64,000 nt of DNA from Myxococcaceae bacterium JPH2 (GTDB taxonomy: Bacteria; Myxococcota; Myxococcia; Myxococcales; Myxococcaceae), in assembly GCA_016458225.1 (NCBI GenBank), contig JAEMGR010000001.1:124001-188000 (forward strand), read 5' to 3'. This document shows positions 7,365 through 17,174 of this stretch, piece by piece; position 1 is the stretch's first letter; every line of letters begins with the position of its first letter. A model generated the notes under the pieces. It did not search any database. It was given only the letters and a program-made list of their open reading frames with translations, and was not told where the DNA came from. Both the position numbers and the translations under genes were made by a program.

Positions 7365-9440
7365 TCAGGCTCCCGCGGACACCGCGGTGAGCCGGCCAAC
7401 GGGTCGGATTTGCAGCCCCCCCTCCAGTTCGCCGTAGGTCAGCACCGCCACCTCGGGGAAGGCGCCCTCGCAGAGCTTTCGCAGGGAGCGTCGGACATCG
7501 GGCGCGGTCAGCAACACGGCGCGGCCTCCCGTGGAGATCCGTCGCACCCCTTCCAGGATTTCCGCCACCCGCTCCGGCGCGAGCGCGGGGCCGCGAGGAC
7601 CTCCCGTGCGGAGTGACTCCTCGACCTCGGGATCCACGAGGTAGGCATACAGCGGTCCGGATGGCGCGAACTTGTGACTCAGGTAGCGGTGCAGCGCCTG
7701 CCGGCACCGCTCCGCGAGCGCACCGGCATCTCCTTCCGTCGTCGGGGAGACCAGCGCCTCAAGGATGGTCCGCAGGTCCCGAATGCTCACCTGCTCCTGG
7801 ACGAGCCGCCGCAGCACATCCACCAGCAGCGGCAGCGGCACCTTCTGCACGGCCTCCTTCACCAGGACCGGGGCATGCGCCTCCAGCCCTTCGAGGAGCT
7901 GCTGCACCTCCTGGAGTCCCAGCAGCGCGGAGGCCCTCGCGCTCAGCACAGCGCGCAGATGGTCTGAGATGAGTTCATCGGCCCGTCGCACGGGCACCTG
8001 CGCCATCTCCAGGCGAGCGCGTGCCGCCTCCGTCACACGACAGATGGTGCGCCCAGTGGCGGGCTCCTGGGCTGGCTCCGCCTTCACCTCGAGGAAGGCC
8101 ACCTCACCGGGCTGGGCCAGGGCATACAGCGCCCCCACCATGACCTGGCCCGCGCCCGCCGGTACTTCGTCCAACAGCAAGCGGTACTCCCCGGGCCCCA
8201 GATAGGACGCCTGCGTCCGTACCCGGATACCGGGGACACGAACCCCCAGCTCAAAGAACAGAGCATCGCGCACGGCATTGAGCGTCCGATGCACGAAAGC
8301 GCCCCCTTCCGCCTCAGCCAAGGGCGTCAGGTCTGGAGCGAGGTCCAACGTGAGCGGCGCGACCCCCACGGGCGCACCGCCACGCTCAGACGCAGGAGCC
8401 TCTCCAACCGTCGGAGCCGCCGCCCCCGGTGCCTTGCCCATGGATGGGTCGCCCAGGCTCGACTTCGACACCTCGCGCTGTCGCAACACATGGCCCAGCG
8501 CGCCCAGGGCCCCACCCAGCACGAAGAACGTCCCATGGGGCATTCCAGGAATGCAGGCCAATGCACCACACAGACCCGCTACGACCCAGAGCGTCTTCGC
8601 CTGTCCGAAGAACTGCGAGCCAATCTCCGAGCCCAGTGAGTCCGATTCGTTCTCCGAGGCCACGCGCGTGACGACGAGACCCGCCGCCACCGCGATGCAC
8701 AACGAGGGAATCTGGGACACGAGCCCGTCGCCCATCGCGATGAGCGCGAACGTGGACGCTGCGTCCGCCAGCGACAGGCCGCCCTGGAACATGCCGATGA
8801 GCGTTCCGCCCAGGAGATTCACCGCGACGATGACCAGCCCCGCGATGACATCTCCCTTCACGAACTTCATGGCGCCGTCCATGGCCCCGAACATCTGCGA
8901 CTCGCGCTCCAGGTCGCGCCGTCGTCGCCGCGCCGCAGCCTGGTCGATGGCCCCCGCTCTCAGGTCCGCGTCGATGGACATCTGCTTGCCTGGCATCGCA
9001 TCCAGCGTGAACCGAGCCGAGACCTCCGCCACGCGCTCCGCGCCCTTGGTCACCACCAGCAACTGCACCAGGGTCAAGATGGCGAACACCACCCCGCCCA
9101 CGACGTAGTCGCCGCGCACCACGAACTCACCGAAGGCCTGGATGACGGCCCCCGCATGCCCCTCGGCGAGCGCCAATCGCGTGGACGACACGTTCAAGGA
9201 CAGGCGGAACAACGTGGTGAAGAGCAACAGCGTGGGAAAGGCAGTCACCTTCAACGCATCCCGCGCGTACAGCGCCGCGACCAGGAGCGCCACCGACACC
9301 GCGAGGTTGAGCGCGAGCCCCACATCCAAGAGCCACGCAGGTAAGGGAATGATGAGCGCGCCCAGGACCGCGGCCATGGCCAGCGCCAGCAGCACGTCCG
9401 ACGAAGTTCGCGCCCACACCTTCTCGAGGCGATGAATCAT
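7365..9440 (-). CDS. sctV: Type III secretion export gate protein SctV (FlhA family)
   Basis: 691 residues. SctV/FlhA forms the nonameric export gate in the inner membrane. About seven hydrophobic helices fill residues 20-310, including the family signature region LALNLAVSVALLVAALYARDALKVTAFP... and the FHIPEP-like loop with FRLSLNVSSTRLAL. A soluble C-terminal half of about 340 residues matches the FlhA/SctV cytoplasmic ring-forming domain. The start is ATG 9440, which overlaps the sctU stop as ATGA; a GTG at 9449 is less likely. It is the last gene of the operon, with a strong hairpin right beside its stop. Confidence 0.95.
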   Translation of the reverse strand: MIHRLEKVWARTSSDVLLALAMAAVLGALIIPLPAWLLDVGLALNLAVSVALLVAALYARDALKVTAFPTLLLFTTLFRLSLNVSSTRLALAEGHAGAVIQAFGEFVVRGDYVVGGVVFAILTLVQLLVVTKGAERVAEVSARFTLDAMPGKQMSIDADLRAGAIDQAAARRRRRDLERESQMFGAMDGAMKFVKGDVIAGLVIVAVNLLGGTLIGMFQGGLSLADAASTFALIAMGDGLVSQIPSLCIAVAAGLVVTRVASENESDSLGSEIGSQFFGQAKTLWVVAGLCGALACIPGMPHGTFFVLGGALGALGHVLRQREVSKSSLGDPSMGKAPGAAAPTVGEAPASERGGAPVGVAPLTLDLAPDLTPLAEAEGGAFVHRTLNAVRDALFFELGVRVPGIRVRTQASYLGPGEYRLLLDEVPAGAGQVMVGALYALAQPGEVAFLEVKAEPAQEPATGRTICRVTEAARARLEMAQVPVRRADELISDHLRAVLSARASALLGLQEVQQLLEGLEAHAPVLVKEAVQKVPLPLLVDVLRRLVQEQVSIRDLRTILEALVSPTTEGDAGALAERCRQALHRYLSHKFAPSGPLYAYLVDPEVEESLRTGGPRGPALAPERVAEILEGVRRISTGGRAVLLTAPDVRRSLRKLCEGAFPEVAVLTYGELEGGLQIRPVGRLTAVSAGA
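7368..7393. terminator. Strong hairpin between convergent HU-like gene and sctV
   Basis: GGCTC-CCGCGG, loop ACA, CCGCGG-(T)-GAGCC forms an 11-bp stem with one bulged base. It starts 26 nt after the HU-like stop and lies within the last codons of sctV. It could end transcripts from both directions, although no T-run follows on either strand. Confidence 0.45.
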
Positions 9441-10486
9441 GGCGTCCACCTCGCCGGATGCATGTCCGAGGACTTCGCCTCCAGCGCCGTCCGGAGCACC
9501 ACCGCGGCGGCTTGATACAGCTCCTCGGGAATCGGCTCGCCCACGTCGAAGTGAACCAGGCTGCGCGCCAACGGGACGTCACGGATGATGGGGATGCCCA
9601 GCTCCAGTGCCTCTGCACGCAGGGCCAGGGCCTCTGCTTCACGGCCCTTCGCGACGAGATACGGGGCGTCACACTCCGCGGAGTCGTAGCGCAATGCGAC
9701 CGCGATATGCGTGGGATTGATGACCATGGCGGTGGCCTTTTGCACCCCACGTGCCGCGCCTCCCTGCGAGAGCTGGCGATGGAGGGCCCTGCGCTGCCCC
9801 TTGTTGCGAGGATCTCCCTCGCTCTCCTTGTGCTCTCGGCGCACCTCCTCGCGAGACATCATGAGGTCACGGCGGTGTCGCCATCGCGCCAACAGGTAGT
9901 CGAGCACGCCCAGTACCAACAGCAGCCATGCCAGGCGGAGACACAGCCCCGACAGGCACTCGCCCAGGAACCGCGCGCCACCCACTCCGTCACTCCAGAT
10001 GGACCGCAGCGCATCGGCGCCGCTCGCGACGACTTCGCGCCAGACCACGAAGGCAACCAAGGCCGTCACAACCAAGGCCTTTCCCACCTCCAGCATCGCG
10101 CGCCCGCTGAACAATCGCTTGAATCCCGCGACGGGATTGACTCGCTCCAGACTGGGGAGCACATGCGCCGGATTCAGCTCGAAACCCACCGTCGCCACTG
10201 AAACTCCGAAGGCGGCCAACAGCGCTCCACCGAGCGCGGGACCACTGAGACTCACGACGAGCCTCGCGGCCTCCATCCCCACATCCGGGGCCCGCTGCTC
10301 CAACAGGAGCCGAGCAGTCCAGGCCATCAACTTCGCGCTCCCATCGCGAGCGTGTGACAGGAATCCCAGAAGTCCCCCCAGCGTCACCGCACTGGCGGAC
10401 AGCATACGACTGCGTGCGACCTGGCCCTTGCGCCGCGCCTCTCGCAAGCGCCGAGGTGTCGGCTGTTCTGTCTTCTCCCCGCTCAC
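9437..10486 (-). CDS. sctU: Type III secretion export apparatus switch protein SctU (FlhB family)
   Basis: 349 residues. SctU/FlhB sits beside the export pore and switches substrate class by autocleavage. The N-terminus EKTEQPTPRRLREARRKGQ is the family hallmark. Four hydrophobic segments lie between about residues 30 and 200, and the autocleavage motif NPTH is intact at 257-260, followed by the conserved IAVALRYD. The start GTG 10486 overlaps the sctT stop (GTGA). Upstream in-frame codons are Arg/Gly-rich and overlap sctT, so they were excluded. Confidence 0.95.
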   Translation of the reverse strand: MSGEKTEQPTPRRLREARRKGQVARSRMLSASAVTLGGLLGFLSHARDGSAKLMAWTARLLLEQRAPDVGMEAARLVVSLSGPALGGALLAAFGVSVATVGFELNPAHVLPSLERVNPVAGFKRLFSGRAMLEVGKALVVTALVAFVVWREVVASGADALRSIWSDGVGGARFLGECLSGLCLRLAWLLLVLGVLDYLLARWRHRRDLMMSREEVRREHKESEGDPRNKGQRRALHRQLSQGGAARGVQKATAMVINPTHIAVALRYDSAECDAPYLVAKGREAEALALRAEALELGIPIIRDVPLARSLVHFDVGEPIPEELYQAAAVVLRTALEAKSSDMHPARWTP

Positions 10487-11277
10487 TGAACCTTCTCCCC
10501 AAGCCAGGCCAGTGCCTCGCCGCTCGCCATGACGCCCGCGAGCAATCGCTCGCACATGACGCCCACACCGAGCCAGAGAACAGCTCCGCCTCCCAGGATT
10601 CGCAGCGGAGCGCCCAGCTCCTTCAAGTCGACCTGGGCCGCGACTCGCGAGGCCATCCCCAGGAAGCAATCCACCGCCAGCACCGCGGCGGCGACAGGCG
10701 CCCCCACCGCCAGCCCTGTCGTCATCGCGGCCCCCACCCAAGTCGCGACCCGCACGACGGCGACTTCCGTCGGCACAAAGACACCCAGCCGCACGACACC
10801 AAATCCTCGAATCAATCCGGAGAGAACGAGCGGGAAGGCACTCCCAGAAACCACGAGCGCAAGCAGCAGGTTGTAGAGCCCCTCCCCCGTAGCGGACTCG
10901 CGACTTCCCGCCACGGGCAGACTCGCTTCCGCGGACGTGCCTCGGACGAGATCGATCATGCGCCCCGCCATCCGCGCCGAGTCGAACGGCAAGGCAGCCA
11001 CCAGCCCCATCACCGAGCCCATGACGAACTCCCGCACCACGAGCGCCCCCAGTTCGAAAGGCGTCTCAACGAGTTGCGGCAAGCTCACGCCCGCTTCCAG
11101 GTGTAAGAACAACGAGAGCGCCAGCACCAGTGCCAGCTTCACGGAAGTGGGCGCGGCCTGCCCTCCGAGCAGTGGGCACAGAAAGGCGATCGGGATGAGA
11201 CGTGACGCGCACAGCGCCACCGCGACGAGGTGGGGTACCAGAGCGGTCAGTGACTCGTTCAGCATCGCGGGACTCAC
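10483..11277 (-). CDS. sctT: Type III secretion export apparatus protein SctT (FliR family)
   Basis: 264 residues with six or so hydrophobic segments. SctT/FliR forms the core pore with SctR and SctS. Matching features are ALCASRLIPIAFLCPLLGG near the N-terminus, REFVMGSVMGLVAALPFDSARMAGRMID (the conserved FliR central region) and a hydrophobic C-terminal half. The start GTG 11277 overlaps the sctS stop (GTGA); ATG 11265 is an alternative. The 4-bp overlaps throughout this stretch imply tight translational coupling. Confidence 0.93.
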   Translation of the reverse strand: MSPAMLNESLTALVPHLVAVALCASRLIPIAFLCPLLGGQAAPTSVKLALVLALSLFLHLEAGVSLPQLVETPFELGALVVREFVMGSVMGLVAALPFDSARMAGRMIDLVRGTSAEASLPVAGSRESATGEGLYNLLLALVVSGSAFPLVLSGLIRGFGVVRLGVFVPTEVAVVRVATWVGAAMTTGLAVGAPVAAAVLAVDCFLGMASRVAAQVDLKELGAPLRILGGGAVLWLGVGVMCERLLAGVMASGEALAWLGEKVQ

Positions 11278-11543
11278 AGCGAGACCTCCGCGATGAGCAT
11301 CAAGAGTTGCTGGGTGAAACGAACGAGCTGCGCCGCAATCCACGGTCCCGCGAGCACCAGCGCCGCCACGGCCGCGCACAGCTTGGGCACCACCGAGAGC
11401 GTGCTTTCCTGAATCTGCGTCGTGGCCTGAAAGAGGCTCGCCGCGAAGCCCACCACCAGACTCGCGCCAATCGGAGGCAACGAGGCCAGCACCATCAACA
11501 GCAGCGCCTCGCGCCCCAGGGTGAGCAGCATGTCTTGGGTCAT
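11274..11543 (-). CDS. sctS: Type III secretion export apparatus protein SctS (FliQ family)
   Basis: 89 residues, the standard FliQ/SctS size, with two transmembrane helices. The family pattern is clear: LTLGREALLLMVLASLPPIG, LVVGFAASLFQATTQIQE, then a second helix around AALVLAGPWIAAQ. It forms part of the export pore. The ATG at 11543 lies one base after the sctR stop. Longer in-frame extensions overlap sctR and were excluded. Confidence 0.95.
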   Translation of the reverse strand: MTQDMLLTLGREALLLMVLASLPPIGASLVVGFAASLFQATTQIQESTLSVVPKLCAAVAALVLAGPWIAAQLVRFTQQLLMLIAEVSL

Positions 11544-11544
11544 G

Positions 11545-12270
11545 TCACCGGTACCCCAAGATGAGCCCACGCGCGAGCAGCGCCCAGCCATCCACCGCGA
11601 CGAAGAGCAGGATCTTGAAGGGCAGACTCACCTGACTGGGCGACAAGGTCTGCATCCCCAGGGCGAGCAACACATTGGCGATGACCATGTCCAGGACAAG
11701 GAAGGGTAGGAAGACGATGAAGCCAATCTCAAAGGCCTCTTTCAGCTCCGTGATGACGAAGGCGGGGATGATGACGAACACGTCCTCCTCCTTGACCTGA
11801 GAGGCCTCTTCGGGAGGCCGCAGCTCGCGCGCGAGGTCCGCGAAGCGAGCACGCTCCTCCACGCTGCCGTGCTTCAACAGAAAGGCCCGCAGGGGCTCGG
11901 AGACCCGAGCCGCCGCGACCAGGACCTCAGTGCCAGAGTCCACGTCGCGATAGGCGACCCGCCCCGCGTCGTACATGTGCTCCGCCACGGGCGCCATGAT
12001 GTGCCCGGTCAGCACGGCCGCCAGCCCCGTGAGCACCAAGGTAGGCGGCGCCTGCTGTGTTCCCATCGCCGAGCGAGCCAGGGACAACACCACCGCGATC
12101 TTCGAGAAGCTCGTCAGCATCAAGACCGCGAAGGGCAGCAACGACATGAGCGCGAGCAGCCCCATCATCGCCACGGGGTTTCCCGCGTACGACATCTGCG
12201 ACAGCGACTCTCCCGCCGCGAACGAGGCCGTGGGCGCCAGCAGCGCCAGCCCGGTCAGCACCCGAGTCAT
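11545..12270 (-). CDS. sctR: Type III secretion export apparatus protein SctR (FliP family)
   Basis: 241 residues. SctR/FliP is the main export-pore subunit. It begins with a cleavable signal-like sequence (MTRVLTGLALLAPTASFAAG), typical of flagellar FliP rather than most injectisome SctR proteins. Conserved blocks follow: SLLPFAVLMLTSFSKIAVVLSLARSAMGTQQAPP, an FVIIPAFVITELKEAFEIGF segment, FLPFLVLDMVIANVLLALGM and SLPFKILLFVAVDGWALL. ATG 12270 overlaps the upstream stop by one base (TGATG). Confidence 0.96.
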   Translation of the reverse strand: MTRVLTGLALLAPTASFAAGESLSQMSYAGNPVAMMGLLALMSLLPFAVLMLTSFSKIAVVLSLARSAMGTQQAPPTLVLTGLAAVLTGHIMAPVAEHMYDAGRVAYRDVDSGTEVLVAAARVSEPLRAFLLKHGSVEERARFADLARELRPPEEASQVKEEDVFVIIPAFVITELKEAFEIGFIVFLPFLVLDMVIANVLLALGMQTLSPSQVSLPFKILLFVAVDGWALLARGLILGYR

Positions 12271-12695
12271 CACGCCACCACCTTGGGGAATCCGCGGCGG
12301 TATCGCGAACGCCACAAGAGAGGCAGCGACCGCGCGAAGGGACGCGGCTTTTTCGTCTCGCGGATCTCCGCGAAGGAGTCCCCGTGCACCACCAGATAGC
12401 CACGCCCATCCACCTCCACCAATGCCAATCCACAGCGCTGCGACAGACCCGCCCTCGACACCACCGTCATCCGTGAGGGGGGCACCACCCCAGGCCCCGC
12501 CATCGCGCGACGGCGCCACCACCAGCCCAGCGCGCCGACCACTGAGACACCGAGAATCCCTCGCGCCACCGTCGCCGCCGACACGCCTCCGCCCAAGGGG
12601 ACGGCGGCAAGCAATCCCAGCATCAGCGCGACCGCCCACATGAGCCGCGTCCGAATCGACAGCGATGCCATCCATGCGCGCACGTCGAACCTCAT
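12270..12695 (-). CDS. FliO-like membrane protein in the type III secretion operon
   Basis: 141 residues. Two hydrophobic segments (residues about 18-38 and 45-60) precede a small cytoplasmic domain with the sequence SQRCGLALVEVDGRGYLVVHGDS. This resembles the FliO core, where a GLALVEVDG-like beta-strand motif is typical. FliO is a flagellar chaperone for FliP assembly, and this gene sits exactly where fliO sits, between the FliM/N homologue and the FliP homologue. FliO is normally absent from injectisomes. The start ATG overlaps the sctQ stop. Similarity is short, so the call rests on motif plus position. Confidence 0.65.
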   Translation of the reverse strand: MRFDVRAWMASLSIRTRLMWAVALMLGLLAAVPLGGGVSAATVARGILGVSVVGALGWWWRRRAMAGPGVVPPSRMTVVSRAGLSQRCGLALVEVDGRGYLVVHGDSFAEIRETKKPRPFARSLPLLWRSRYRRGFPKVVA

Positions 12696-13855
12696 GGCAG
12701 CAGCGCGAGGATGCGGGCACCAACCTCGCCCTCAATATCGACCAACTCCGCTCGCGCGACTGCCCGTTCTCCCACGCGCAGCAGCACCGGATCACTCGCG
12801 TTGATGTGCAGCGGGACCAGCGCCCCCGGCCGCATCCCCATCAACTCCGTCAGCGGCAACATCACGCGGGCCAGCTCAATCTCCACGTCCACGGGAAGCG
12901 GGGGCATTCCCTCGCTCGACTCACTGCCTGCGACCATGACCAACTCCTGGGATGACGCGCCCGAGTGAGCGCGGTTCAACGAGAAACCATCCGACTGAAA
13001 CGACCCGCTCAGGGCGAACCCCGAGGTCACCAGTCGCCCTGGACCTCGGATGTGGCCCGCCTCGCGGTGCACACCCTCGAAAACGATGACGTCTCTGCCT
13101 CGCAGGGACTCCAGCGCGCCCGGCGAGAGCCGGCTCCGTCCAGCGCGACATCGCGCAGGAATCGCCACCGACAGCCATTGCGACGCGGGCTCCCGCACCG
13201 GTGCACGGGGCAGGGATTGAAGCGCGACCTGGAGCGAGTGCGCCGGCAACACGAGGCGCGCGCCTCCAACCACCTCCCCCAGACGCACGCGCAGCTCGAT
13301 GCCCACGTGACGCCGACGCGCCTCCATCCGTGCCACGACGTCCGCACCGCGCGCCGTCACCGCAAGCAGCCGCGGTCCCAGCAGGTCATGGGGCACGCCC
13401 TGCGCTCGCGTCGCCGAGAGCACCGCGAGGAGCAAGAACACCAGTGTGGACTCCTCCAGACGGGTGAGGGCCTCCAACGGAGCGGCGCGGCGACCTGCCC
13501 CCGCCAATTGCCCCAGCGCGGAGAAAACCAGGGAGGGCTCCAGCTCCAGGACCGCCACTCCACCCACCGCGGACAGCTCCAGCACCGCGAAGACATTTCC
13601 GGCTGCGAGCCCCGATGCCGGAACGAGCACCGACTCCAACACCCGCGCCTCCGCGGAAACGCTGACGTCCAGCTCGCGCGTCAGCGCTTCACACGCGACA
13701 CGCAGTGCCGCATCCCCTAGCGCAGCCGTATCCGGGCGCTGAGACAGGAGCAGATGCGCACGGGAGAGCTTGCGCATGGCCAACCAGGTCGGCCGTGCGC
13801 TGCGCTGGGATGAAGAAGAGGCACGAAACGGATTCGTCATGGACTTGGGCGCCAT
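12692..13855 (-). CDS. sctQ: Type III secretion C-ring protein SctQ (FliM/FliN family)
   Basis: 387 residues. The C-terminal 75 residues (LPVDVEIELARVMLPLTELMGMRPGALVPL ... GERAVARAELVDIEGEVGARI) form a SpoA/FliN domain. The preceding 300 residues resemble the variable N-terminal part of SctQ proteins. SctQ builds the cytoplasmic sorting platform that binds substrates. The start is uncertain: ATG 13855 or ATG 13840, neither with a good ribosome site. The frame is open upstream without any start codon back to the previous gene's stop, leaving an unexplained 108-bp gap in an otherwise overlapping operon. Confidence 0.85.
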   Translation of the reverse strand: MAPKSMTNPFRASSSSQRSARPTWLAMRKLSRAHLLLSQRPDTAALGDAALRVACEALTRELDVSVSAEARVLESVLVPASGLAAGNVFAVLELSAVGGVAVLELEPSLVFSALGQLAGAGRRAAPLEALTRLEESTLVFLLLAVLSATRAQGVPHDLLGPRLLAVTARGADVVARMEARRRHVGIELRVRLGEVVGGARLVLPAHSLQVALQSLPRAPVREPASQWLSVAIPARCRAGRSRLSPGALESLRGRDVIVFEGVHREAGHIRGPGRLVTSGFALSGSFQSDGFSLNRAHSGASSQELVMVAGSESSEGMPPLPVDVEIELARVMLPLTELMGMRPGALVPLHINASDPVLLRVGERAVARAELVDIEGEVGARILALLP

Positions 13856-13963
13856 GGCAATGCAGGTGCACGGCCAACATGAGCGCGAGTGGGAACAGGT
13901 GGTTGTGAGCGAGCGGCATCCGCGAGCCGGATGCCGAGTACACGGAGCTGGACACTCCGCAGG

Positions 13964-14443
13964 TCAGCGCGTCGCCTCGCGAATGAGTCGTGCGGCGAGC
14001 GCCTCCATTCCGGAGGCGCCTTCCTGGGCTGTGCCCTCGAGCACCTGCCCTGGAAAGAGGCTGCGGTGATACGGAGGCAGCGCGCGGTAGAGCGCCTTTC
14101 GCAATGGGCCGCTCGCGGAGGCCATCACCGCGCGCAGTCGCTCCGCCGCGTCTTCGCGTTCACCAAAGGCCATGGCGACCCTCGCTTGACGGCGCGCCGA
14201 CTGCAGCGTGGCGACCTCCGCCAACAGGCCTCGGGCTTGCTCGGCATCCGCAGCAACCAGTCCGTCCAACAACTCCAAGGCTCGGTCCCGGGCCAGGGCG
14301 TGAAGCACCAGGACGCAGCGCTCCAACGAGAGGGGTAGCGAAGGAGATGCCTTCGGCTCCGACTGGACGTGCGGCCCTGGATTCGGAGCAGCCACCGTCC
14401 TCCGCACAGGCCGCGAGGCCCGTCCCGCTCGCGTCACGTCCAT
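13964..14443 (-). CDS. Unrecognised protein in the type III secretion operon, between sctJ and sctQ
   Basis: 159 residues; not recognised. The first 35 residues are basic and Pro-rich. The rest is predicted all-helical (LERCVLVLHALARDRALELLDGL, AEQARGLLAEVATLQSARRQ, AERLRAVMASASGPLRKALYRAL). No membrane segment or signal peptide. ATG 14443 has GAGGG six bases upstream. It occupies the place of fliG (after fliF) in flagellar operons, or of sctK/sctL in injectisome operons. A FliG-like or SctK-like adaptor between the SctJ ring and the SctQ platform is my inference from position and helical character only. Confidence 0.6.
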   Translation of the reverse strand: MDVTRAGRASRPVRRTVAAPNPGPHVQSEPKASPSLPLSLERCVLVLHALARDRALELLDGLVAADAEQARGLLAEVATLQSARRQARVAMAFGEREDAAERLRAVMASASGPLRKALYRALPPYHRSLFPGQVLEGTAQEGASGMEALAARLIREATR

Positions 14444-14453
14444 GCGGAGGCCC

Positions 14454-15257
14454 TCATGTGACCTTGCGGGGCGCGGCCGGCGTCAGCACGGGGCGCGGTG
14501 GGGTGGTCGGCACCGAGGACGGCTCACTCCGCATCCGATAGTGTTTCAGCTTCAGCGTCACCAGCACCAGGGCCACCGCCAGCACGGTGAGAACCATCCC
14601 AAGTGCCGCGAGGAGGATTCGCAGGCGCGCCAGCGGAGACGCATTCGGCTGCGCCACGGGCATCACTCGGGTCGTCACCTCGTCCACGAGCAGGGACACG
14701 CCCTCCGGCGAAAGCCCCTCCACCCCACCCGCGAGGAGCGTCTTGAGTGACTCCGTGGACTGGCGCAGATGCGCGGCGCGACCGGGTTCGGCCCGCAGCA
14801 TGGCCGCGGCCTTCGATGCGGCCACGGGTTGTCCCGACCGAGGTAGAGAGGGCAGCACCAGATGCACTCGCGCCAGCAGGACACCGTCCACGGTTTGCAG
14901 CGTCTTCTCCAGCTCCCGCTCCAGCACCCGCGTTCGACAGACCTGCTCCTCCAGGGGGGTGCGCACCAGTCCGCTTCCGCCGAAGACTTCACATCCCGAC
15001 TCCTCGGGCGGACGCGGCAACCCCAGCTCCGCGAGAATGCGAACAGCGTCGGAGGCATGCTCTTCCTCGACCTCCACCGACCATGAGGGCTTCTTGCCCC
15101 CTTCCGCGACCTTGCGCGCATCGAGCCCCCGCTCGATGAGGACCGTCTGAAGGAGGTTGGCCTGCCGCTCATCCAACCCGTGTTGAATCTGCTCACGACA
15201 TGCCGTGACACCCTGAAGACAGAGCAGGAGCAGCACGGCTCGACACAAGAAACGCAT
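14454..15257 (-). CDS. sctJ: Type III secretion inner-membrane ring lipoprotein SctJ (YscJ/PrgK family)
   Basis: 267 residues. A signal peptide ends in a lipobox LQGVTAC, so C20 would be lipidated. The YscJ/FliF ring-building motifs follow: QIQHGLDERQANLLQTVLIERGLDARKV, VEVEEEHASDAVRILAELGLPRP, and RTRVLERELEKTLQTVDGVLLARVHLVLP. A transmembrane helix lies near residues 215-238 with a basic cytoplasmic tail, as in YscJ and PrgK. It forms the inner MS-like ring of the injectisome. A flagellar FliF would be twice as long, so this gene identifies the system as non-flagellar. Confidence 0.94.
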   Translation of the reverse strand: MRFLCRAVLLLLCLQGVTACREQIQHGLDERQANLLQTVLIERGLDARKVAEGGKKPSWSVEVEEEHASDAVRILAELGLPRPPEESGCEVFGGSGLVRTPLEEQVCRTRVLERELEKTLQTVDGVLLARVHLVLPSLPRSGQPVAASKAAAMLRAEPGRAAHLRQSTESLKTLLAGGVEGLSPEGVSLLVDEVTTRVMPVAQPNASPLARLRILLAALGMVLTVLAVALVLVTLKLKHYRMRSEPSSVPTTPPRPVLTPAAPRKVT

Positions 15258-15269
15258 GCGAGGAGTTCC

Positions 15270-15746
15270 TCAAATCTGGGTCTGCAGAACCTGCTTCACG
15301 CCGCTCGTGGCCTTCTCGACAACCTTGCCCGCGAGATCGAGTTCCTGACTCGCGCGGTAGACTCGCGCTTGAAGGCCCAGCAGCTCGGTGGCTGTGAAGG
15401 TGCGGCCGGACTCGGCCAGCCGCATGACGTGGTCCAATTGCTTGCGCGCCTGGTCGACGCCCTCCAACACCTGAGCCACATGCTGCGCTCGCGCGGATTG
15501 AACCGAGCCCACTCGCGTGTCGGGCTTCGCGCCCTCCACCGCAGCGCACGTCTTCCGCGTGTCGTCCACGCGCGATGGACTCCGCGCCACCTCCGAGGTA
15601 GCCGCGCCCTCTCGCGGACCCGATACTCGCGGGGGCCCCGAGCTCTTCGGCAGCTCCCGCGCACCGTCCAGGACGTCTCGAAACGACTCTCTCGGCGAGA
15701 CACCCGAGGCCACGCTTCCCGTGGGCCCCATCTTGTCGATGCCCAT
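15270..15746 (-). CDS. sctI: Probable inner-rod protein SctI (YscI/PrgJ-like)
   Basis: 158 residues, longer than typical SctI (80-140). The C-terminal 60 residues carry the expected pattern: TFTATELLGLQARVYRASQE, then LAGKVVEKATSGVKQVLQTQI, which corresponds to the helical C-terminus that polymerises in the rod. The N-terminal 90 residues are low-complexity Ser/Pro/Arg-rich, without secondary structure. It lies between sctJ and the sctF-like gene, as in SPI-1 (prgI-prgJ-prgK). Spacing to its neighbours is 7 and 12 nt. The identity is inferred from the tail motif plus synteny. Confidence 0.75.
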   Translation of the reverse strand: MGIDKMGPTGSVASGVSPRESFRDVLDGARELPKSSGPPRVSGPREGAATSEVARSPSRVDDTRKTCAAVEGAKPDTRVGSVQSARAQHVAQVLEGVDQARKQLDHVMRLAESGRTFTATELLGLQARVYRASQELDLAGKVVEKATSGVKQVLQTQI

Positions 15747-15753
15747 GGGCGCC

Positions 15754-16203
15754 TCAGCGGATGTTGTTGATGGCCGCCTTCGCGGAGTCGTGGCGGACCT
15801 TCATGATGTTGGAGATGGCGTTGTGCTCGCGGCTCTCCTGCTGCATCTCGTTCTGGAGCTGGAGGTAGGCCATGTTGAACTTCTGGCCCTCCGCGTTCAT
15901 GAGCTTCTGGGCCTCCATCAAGTCCCACGCATCGCCCTGCCCCGCGCTGCTGCCCCCCACGCTCGTGCCCCCCTTCAGCGGCACCGTCGTCGACCCCACG
16001 GAGGAGGCCACCACCGAACTCACGCTGGAGATGGCCGCGCTCGTGATGGGCCCCCCCGGAATCATCCCGCCCACGAGCCCCGCGCCCGTGCGCACGACTT
16101 CGCGCGCCGCTCGCGCGAGGCTGGGGCCGAACTCACTTCGCGGCGTCTGCCGAGCAACAGTCTGGGTAATGGTCAGCGAGGGAAGTGCGTGGGATGAGTC
16201 CAA
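15754..16203 (-). CDS. Candidate needle protein (SctF-like), first gene of the type III secretion operon
   Basis: 149 residues from a TTG start at 16203. No ATG or GTG lies suitably, while GGAGG (minus strand, 16210-16214) sits six bases upstream of the TTG. The central part is Gly/Ser/Val-rich (GLVGGMIPGG ... SSVSSVVASSVGS). The last 60 residues form a probable helical hairpin ending ISNIMKVRHDSAKAAINNIR. That end resembles the PrgI needle C-terminus, and the gene position before sctI and sctJ equals that of prgI. Needle proteins are about 80 residues, so the 80-residue N-terminal extension would be unusual. The call is an inference. Confidence 0.5.
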   Translation of the reverse strand: MDSSHALPSLTITQTVARQTPRSEFGPSLARAAREVVRTGAGLVGGMIPGGPITSAAISSVSSVVASSVGSTTVPLKGGTSVGGSSAGQGDAWDLMEAQKLMNAEGQKFNMAYLQLQNEMQQESREHNAISNIMKVRHDSAKAAINNIR

Positions 16204-16238: not shown

Positions 16239-16254
16239 TCCAATGGGCATGCCA
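16239..16254 (-). promoter_or_regulatory. Weak sigma-54-like element upstream of the type III secretion operon
   Basis: On the minus strand TGGCATG, four bases, TTGGA resembles the -24/-12 consensus TGGCACG-N4-TTGCA. It stands about 25 nt before the TTG start, with the expected geometry. The nearly invariant GC at -12 is GG here, so the match is doubtful. Confidence 0.2.
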
Positions 16255-16430: not shown

Positions 16431-16757
16431 GTGATGACCTCCCCTGGTGCACCCAGCACGGCCGAACGCTTTCACCCTCGCGTCGAGGCCAATCTCCCCG
16501 TCAAGGTGCTCCTGTCCGGGCGCACCGTGTCGGCTCAGGCGCGCGACGTGTCCATGGCCGGGCTGTTCCTTCTCGCGCACGCGGCGGAGACCCAGCAGAC
16601 CCTCACCATCGCCTTGCCGCTACCGGGTGACCGAGAGCTCGTCACCACGTGCGAGATTCGGCGGCGCGAGGTGGATGGCGTGGCGCTGGAGTTTGGTCCC
16701 CTGGACTGGGACGACCTCATCGCCCTGGCGCGCTTCCTCCATCCGCGCCTGCCCTGA
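16431..16757 (+). CDS. PilZ domain protein (single domain)
   Basis: 108 residues. Both cyclic-di-GMP contact motifs of PilZ domains are present: RFHPR (RxxxR) near the N-terminus and DVSMAG (DxSxxG) about 30 residues later. Cyclic-di-GMP binding is therefore plausible. GTG 16431 lies nine bases after AAGGAG; ATG 16434 is the alternative start. It is transcribed divergently from the type III secretion operon, across a 227-bp shared upstream region, and converges on the response regulator gene. The partner protein is unknown; myxobacterial PilZ proteins act in motility, exopolysaccharide and development. Confidence 0.9.
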   Translation: MMTSPGAPSTAERFHPRVEANLPVKVLLSGRTVSAQARDVSMAGLFLLAHAAETQQTLTIALPLPGDRELVTTCEIRRREVDGVALEFGPLDWDDLIALARFLHPRLP

Positions 16758-16772
16758 GCGAAACGCCGACGG

Positions 16773-17174
16773 TCAGCTCGACGCGGCCATCCGCGTGCGC
16801 AGCCGCTCCACCAGCGCCATCAACTCCGCGCCTCGGAATGGCTTGTGGATGTAGCCATCCGCGCCCGCGGCCGTCGCGCTCTCCACATCCGACTTCTTCG
16901 CCTTCCCGGTCAGCATGTAGAGCGGCACGCCCGCCGTGGACGGATCGCTCTTGAGGATGCGGCAGACCGAAACGCCATCGAGTTGCGGTAGCACCACGTC
17001 CATCAAGATGAGGTGGAAGGGCTGACTCTTCGCGAGCTTCAGGCCCTCCAACCCATTCGCAGCGCACACCACATCCACAGCGCCATCGCTCAACATGGAG
17101 CGGACGAGTTCGCGAATGACGGGTTCGTCCTCGACGAGCAGGATGTGGAAAGGTGCCTGGGCGTTGACGGCCAT
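16773..17174 (-). CDS. Receiver-only response regulator (CheY-like)
   Basis: 133 residues from ATG 17174 (AGGA four bases upstream). One receiver domain with acidic pocket E15-D16, phospho-acceptor D59 (LILMDVVLPQLDG), T89 (LTGK) and K111 (HKPF). There is no output domain, so it must signal through a partner. No histidine kinase is adjacent. In-frame extension upstream to 17417 is Arg/Cys-rich and rejected. Confidence 0.93.
   Translation of the reverse strand: MAVNAQAPFHILLVEDEPVIRELVRSMLSDGAVDVVCAANGLEGLKLAKSQPFHLILMDVVLPQLDGVSVCRILKSDPSTAGVPLYMLTGKAKKSDVESATAAGADGYIHKPFRGAELMALVERLRTRMAASS

Follow-up and report, generated by a model that had tools for sequence, protein, structure and literature searches.

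A conserved secretin-less type III export operon of the Myxo type in a Myxococcaceae genome, with an ATPase probably supplied in trans

An operon in the genome of Myxococcaceae bacterium JPH2 raises the question of which machine its export genes belong to and what powers them: injectisome-type rings are encoded in a flagellar gene order, and no export ATPase is encoded with them. The operon lies in the window, by which we mean the whole stretch of 64,000 nucleotides that was analysed (GenBank assembly GCA_016458225.1, contig JAEMGR010000001.1, positions 124,001 to 188,000 of the forward strand); coordinates are window positions, and contig C12 and the L-labelled loci cited below have their own numbering. 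The operon is a 'Myxo' non-flagellar type III secretion system (T3SS), a type already known, and apparently the counterpart of T3SS(2) of M. xanthus, the match being by gene content and literature rather than by alignment. It runs intact on the minus strand from position 16203, the likely TTG start of its first gene, to 7365, and comprises eleven genes in the order X-sctI-sctJ-FliG_N-like-sctQ-FliO-like-sctR-S-T-U-V:

15754..16203, minus strand: gene X, 149 amino acids (aa), first gene of the operon; TTG start with GGAGG just upstream
15270..15746, minus strand: sctI, inner rod; PF17001 at 1.4e-4, under its cut-off, its place before sctJ being conserved
14454..15257, minus strand: sctJ, short inner-ring lipoprotein of 267 aa; PF01514 (YscJ_FliF) at 1.1e-18
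13964..14443, minus strand: FliG_N-like gene in the fliG position; weak PF14842 match in some orthologues
12692..13855, minus strand: sctQ, C-ring; PF01052 (FliMN_C) at 1.2e-15, TIGR02551 at 1.4e-26
12270..12695, minus strand: FliO-like gene between sctQ and sctR; PF04347 in orthologues
11545..12270, minus strand: sctR; PF00813 at 1.1e-64, exceeding the SctR cut-off of TIGR01102
11274..11543, minus strand: sctS; PF01313 at 1.5e-25
10483..11265, minus strand: sctT; PF01311 at 5.7e-33, start inferred from the translation of the open reading frame (ORF)
9437..10486, minus strand: sctU; PF01312 at 5.2e-91, NPTH autocleavage motif intact
7365..9449, minus strand: sctV, last gene of the operon; PF00771 at 1.1e-207

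An earlier note on this DNA had read the export genes as sctQ-fliO-like-sctR-S-T-U-V and had recognised a short lipidated sctJ with sctI before it. Both readings hold: all of these genes lie on the minus strand in that order, and SctJ has a lipobox (VTAC), as do 20 of the 26 scanned orthologues. Every gene that the note named is present, and X and the FliG_N-like gene have to be added to its list. The SctJ product matches TIGR02544 at 4.2e-39, under the cut-off of that model, and SctV scores 672.7 bits with an SctV-like model versus 594.6 bits with an FlhA-like model, each under its own cut-off. The NPTH motif of SctU is present in 39 of 43 orthologues. The FliO-like gene is well founded in its family, since PF04347 matches all 19 orthologues (best 2.6e-7); the window copy alone reaches 18.6 bits with a cut-off of 22, and its protein can be aligned with E. 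coli FliO. The note had regarded FliO as unusual in injectisomes; the gene is there, but FliO has been described in both M. xanthus systems (PMC12403147, published in 2025; here and below, published statements are cited from the searchable text of the articles). A Pfam scan of the operon genes found no sctL, sctN, sctO, sctP, SctD, secretin or filament gene, in line with the note for secretin, ATPase, SctD and filament.

This arrangement recurs across the family far beyond chance. The full order X-I-J-G-Q-O-R-S-T-U-V was found in 23 of the 29 family loci examined, the other six being interrupted by contig ends or having some positions filled by unassigned ORFs. The greater part of the operon is also present in f3, another family of the same order, where SctV of this type reaches 43-53% identity in its best matches and the G position is taken by a small unassigned ORF. 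All 11 genes are under purifying selection, with ratios of nonsynonymous to synonymous substitution (dN/dS) of 0.03-0.31 versus one congeneric genome.

The ATPase absent from the operon is not missing from the cell, because a second locus carries the only SctN found in a whole-genome search. This larger locus (contig C12, 170749-192633) has the same genes as the window operon plus sctL, sctN and sctO; it further holds a FliK-like sctP, TPR proteins and four tandem proteins of 69-73 aa, with an FHA/YscD-like protein alongside, and it fits the T3SS* of M. xanthus (MXAN_2434-2464; PMC12075869, PMC10433427). A sigma-70-family factor gene lies near the start of the T3SS* operon (L004 54-887), and a stand-alone SctU/FlhB C-terminal domain gene (FlhX-like; L004 13292-13573) follows its sctU. 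The note's view that no ATPase accompanies the operon thus stands for the operon and not for the genome, in which the single SctN sits with sctL in the second locus. Whole-genome searches also found three secretins, PilQ and GspD above their own cut-offs and a third that is short and unassigned, perhaps of the Tad type; no secretin reached the SctC cut-off and there were zero PF00669 (flagellin) matches in the genome. A standard injectisome completed elsewhere in the genome was rejected for want of SctC, and a flagellum was rejected given the lack of flagellin and the short SctJ.

Comparison among genomes indicates how the gate may be powered. No locus of this type, in the family or in f3, holds sctL, sctN, sctO or sctP inside the operon. 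By hand count, of the 66 family genomes with this gate and one other gate, 63 encode exactly one SctN and two SctN genes occur in none; the remaining three are drafts, two without a detected SctN and one with a fragment of it at the end of a contig. Three genomes that have only this gate (G001, G081 and G082) carry sctL-sctN at the T3SS* site, with the same neighbours, while the rest of T3SS* is absent, and G051 shows the same retention on a short contig; sctO accompanies the pair in G001 and G051. Since G001 and G081 are not sisters in a 72-taxon FastTree, either the loss of T3SS* was repeated or its other genes were never present in G081. The f3 genomes with this gate and neither a T3SS* gate nor flagellar FlhA have a lone sctL-sctN behind rpoB-rpoC. 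The P-loop of these SctN proteins is intact, and in a tree they fall with T3SS* SctN (support 0.995) and separate from FliI. Because loci of this type never hold sctL, sctN or sctO, and because genomes without T3SS* have kept sctL-sctN-(sctO) at its site, the simplest reading of these genomes is that the ATPase for this gate is probably supplied in trans. As to the setting of the motor genes in f3, the lone sctL-sctN-(sctO-like) cluster of L160, L161, L164 and L169 immediately follows rpoB, rpoC and the gene of a sigma factor.

The class of the operon was addressed with a tree of concatenated SctRSTUV from 30 taxa (IQ-TREE, LG+F+G4). Flagella, injectisomes, this type and T3SS* each form a well-supported group; injectisomes (99.9/100) and flagella (100/100) are separate clades, the window operon falls outside both, and this type is grouped with T3SS* (80.8/88). 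Nesting of the operon inside the injectisome clade is not supported, and the phylogeny that the note had called for does not place it within a modern injectisome family. Its position relative to T3SS* and injectisomes leaves alternatives, as approximately unbiased (AU) tests rejected none of three arrangements (this type with T3SS*, p 0.83; this type with injectisomes, 0.25; T3SS* with injectisomes, 0.13) and FastTree with 72 taxa placed this type with injectisomes. Abby & Rocha (2012, PMC3459982) described 'short' and 'long' secretin-less Myxo loci at the base of the non-flagellar systems, and listed FliG as absent from them. Our tree agrees with that basal position, which the note had given for a secretin-lacking myxobacterial system, and is not proof of it by itself.

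Likeness to known systems is greatest among myxobacterial loci. The second M. xanthus cluster of this kind, T3SS(2) (MXAN_5643-5654; PMC10196010), and the published Myxo loci share with the window operon the lack of a secretin, the standing as the smaller of two loci, FliO, the conserved order and the absence of any implication in prey killing, for which T3SS(2) is dispensable (PMC10196010); they differ in that a FliG-like gene, an SctF-like X and ATPase sharing are not described for them in the article text, figures and supplements aside. The M. xanthus 'needleless' T3SS*, represented here by C12, has X, I, J, G, Q, FliO and R-V in identical order and is sister in the best tree, but it also has sctL/N/O/P, the FHA/YscD-like and TPR proteins, the stand-alone SctU C-domain and tandem SctF-like genes, all of which the window operon lacks. 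With the flagellum (fliE-F-G-H-I-J-K-M-N-O-P-Q-R, flhB, flhA) the operon shares gene order, FliO and a FliG-like gene, whereas it has a short lipoprotein SctJ instead of a long FliF and is without rod, hook, filament and motor genes and FliI. It resembles canonical injectisomes in SctJ type, SctI and an SctV nearer the injectisome model than FlhA, and differs from them in lacking secretin, SctN, SctL and SctD at the locus and in having FliO and the flagellar order.

A FliG-like gene seems to have been kept in flagellar order at both loci, clearly in T3SS* and weakly in the window operon. The T3SS* gene after sctJ (C12 174562-176754; L004 2347-4539) encodes a homologue of FliG that has a long tail rich in proline, and FliG_C is matched in 6 of 7 members (best 1.1e-9); our own FliG profile was built from three sequences. 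For the window gene, PF14842 matches 4 of 18 orthologues (best 7.8e-4). Its structural model has a predicted local distance difference test score (pLDDT) of 78.6, and FliG_N chains head its VIA-align matches (Z 5.9 and 5.0); the Foldseek E-value of this model was not significant.

Judging from their sequences, the product of gene X and the small proteins encoded in tandem in T3SS* are similar to the needle subunit SctF, and because of this resemblance the term 'needleless' is worth reconsidering. The C-terminal helix of X is nearly invariant among 17 orthologues, whose commonest Pfam matches, all weak, are HrpF (nine) and T3SS_needle_F (PF09392; eight). Its C-terminus is homologous to the small T3SS* proteins (probability 95.9, E 6e-9). 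The top match of the small-protein profile in PDB is a chain of a T3SS needle/co-chaperone entry (E 0.0023), proteins at the same T3SS* position in a relative, G044, exceed the needle cut-off (33 versus 29.4 bits), and in a set of 21 X and SctF-like proteins the family matched most often is the needle family (7 of 21, best 3.6e-7). Aligning X or the small T3SS* proteins by hhalign with a single rhizobial SctF gave no match. Within the C12 T3SS* locus the four tandem SctF-like genes of 69-73 aa are nearly identical (187621-189189; L004 15406-16974), and G077 and G042 have genes of this kind on the strand opposite to the T3SS* operon.

The operon is flanked by potential regulators and preceded by a promoter-like element:

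16239..16254, minus strand: promoter-like element TGGCATGCCCATTGGA before X, sigma-54-like
16431..16757, plus strand: divergent PilZ gene, probable regulator; PF07238 at 4.1e-11
16773..17174, minus strand: CheY-like response regulator, possible regulator; PF00072 at 2.3e-26

PilZ and CheY-like genes stand beside X in nearly all family loci, and the cyclic di-GMP (c-di-GMP) motif of PilZ, RxxxR..DxSxxG, is present in 19 of 25, the other six having a shorter ORF. In f3, judged by gene sizes only, PilZ was not seen beside the operon. In most family loci X is preceded, at a distance of about 50 nt, by an element of the form TGGCAYGN4CTGAA; support for it comes from this conserved position, as the window copy alone is not significant (5 of 300 shuffles reach its score) and its -12 half is without the GC usual in sigma-54 sites. 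That these proteins or the element control the operon is a guess from position. Between PilZ and X, loci of deeper family lineages (L094 11945-13156, also L128, L130 and L132) have a gene that is patatin-like by eye, with GGGARG and GTSVG motifs.

Taken as a whole, the locus is likely to be explained as a T3SS(2) counterpart: a secretin-less export gate of the inner membrane that takes its motor from the T3SS* locus and has X as a substrate. SctJ and SctI would form the ring and rod base and SctR, SctS and SctT the pore, with FliO probably aiding SctR assembly; SctU would act as the switch and SctV as the substrate-docking gate. The FliG_N-like protein probably connects SctJ with the SctQ ring, as FliG does between FliF and FliM, and the SctL-SctN-SctO motor complex would come from another locus, here the C12 cluster. 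X, an SctF-like axial protein, would be a likely early substrate exported over the inner membrane, and the PilZ and CheY-like neighbours suggest control by c-di-GMP and phosphorylation. Gene content and order, conservation, purifying selection and the inventory of SctN and secretins are observed directly, whereas the sharing of the ATPase, the export of X, the role of the FliG-like protein, the regulation and whatever crosses the outer membrane are inferred.

Several observations weigh against this explanation. The gate is present and SctN was not detected in the draft genomes G025 and G048, and that SctN would serve this gate is read from genome comparison. The T3SS(2) genes of M. xanthus were reported to be down-regulated during predation (PMC10196010), and T3SS(2) has no known phenotype. 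The window gene matches FliG_N weakly, in sequence as in fold. The likeness of X to SctF lies in one C-terminal helix: its own PF09392 match covers the C-terminal part only and is under the cut-off, no needle was among the PDB sequences matched by the X profile, and the X model is of low confidence (pLDDT 61) and too poor for a structure search. Instead of being needle-like, X could be a substrate of translocator-like or regulatory type in which a hydrophobic segment is combined with an amphipathic helix at the C-terminus, and its hydrophobic, glycine-rich middle and modelled single long helix without a hairpin are what such a protein would have; we regard this as a serious possibility, albeit one that we doubt, given the homology of its C-terminus to the small T3SS* proteins and the prevalence of needle matches among X and these relatives.

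Other accounts concern the whole system. By loss of secretin and motor it may have been reduced from a member of the injectisome lineage, and would then be the sister of injectisomes and not part of a basal Myxo clade, a placement recovered in one FastTree run and not rejected by the AU test; we think this unlikely, as the best IQ-TREE tree joins the operon to T3SS*, with which it has FliO, the FliG-like slot, X and the flagellar order in common. More improbable is an exporter that runs on proton motive force alone, the sctL-sctN remnants serving something else. Flagellar export is possible without FliI under some conditions, and no locus of this type has motor genes; yet sctL-sctN has been retained in genomes that lack both the remainder of T3SS* and any other gate, and well-assembled genomes of the order that have no gate also lack SctN (e.g., G045, G098 and G100). 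It seems very improbable that the operon is what is left of a decaying T3SS, an annotation once given to the M. xanthus loci: the lack of ATPase, secretin, SctD, SctL and SctP and the dispensability of T3SS(2) for prey killing would fit decay, but all 11 genes are intact under purifying selection, the set is kept across the family and largely across the order, and NPTH persists in nearly all sctU genes.

The Myxo non-flagellar T3SS, its basal position and its lack of a secretin were already known (PMC3459982), as was FliO in both systems (PMC12403147). The evidence for a motor in trans, the FliG-like gene at both loci, the resemblance to SctF and the PilZ and CheY-like flanks are new here; motor sharing and FliG-like and SctF-like genes found no mention in the searchable body text of openly available articles. 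A wider proposal, plausible although we lean slightly against it, is that in myxobacteria two type III gates run on one SctL-SctN-SctO motor, both derived from a flagellum-injectisome intermediate with FliG- and FliO-like parts and exporting SctF-like subunits, so that the 'needleless' systems would not be needleless.

Among living systems, those of the Myxo type give the main evidence for the origin of the injection needle from the flagellum, and with a conserved gate that has no motor of its own and combines flagellar order, FliO and a FliG-like slot, steps of this transition can be put to the test. For the sharing of an ATPase by two secretion systems, genomes that retain only the motor genes of T3SS* amount to a natural experiment, and SctF-like proteins in a 'needleless' system bear on the lysis of prey by myxobacteria.

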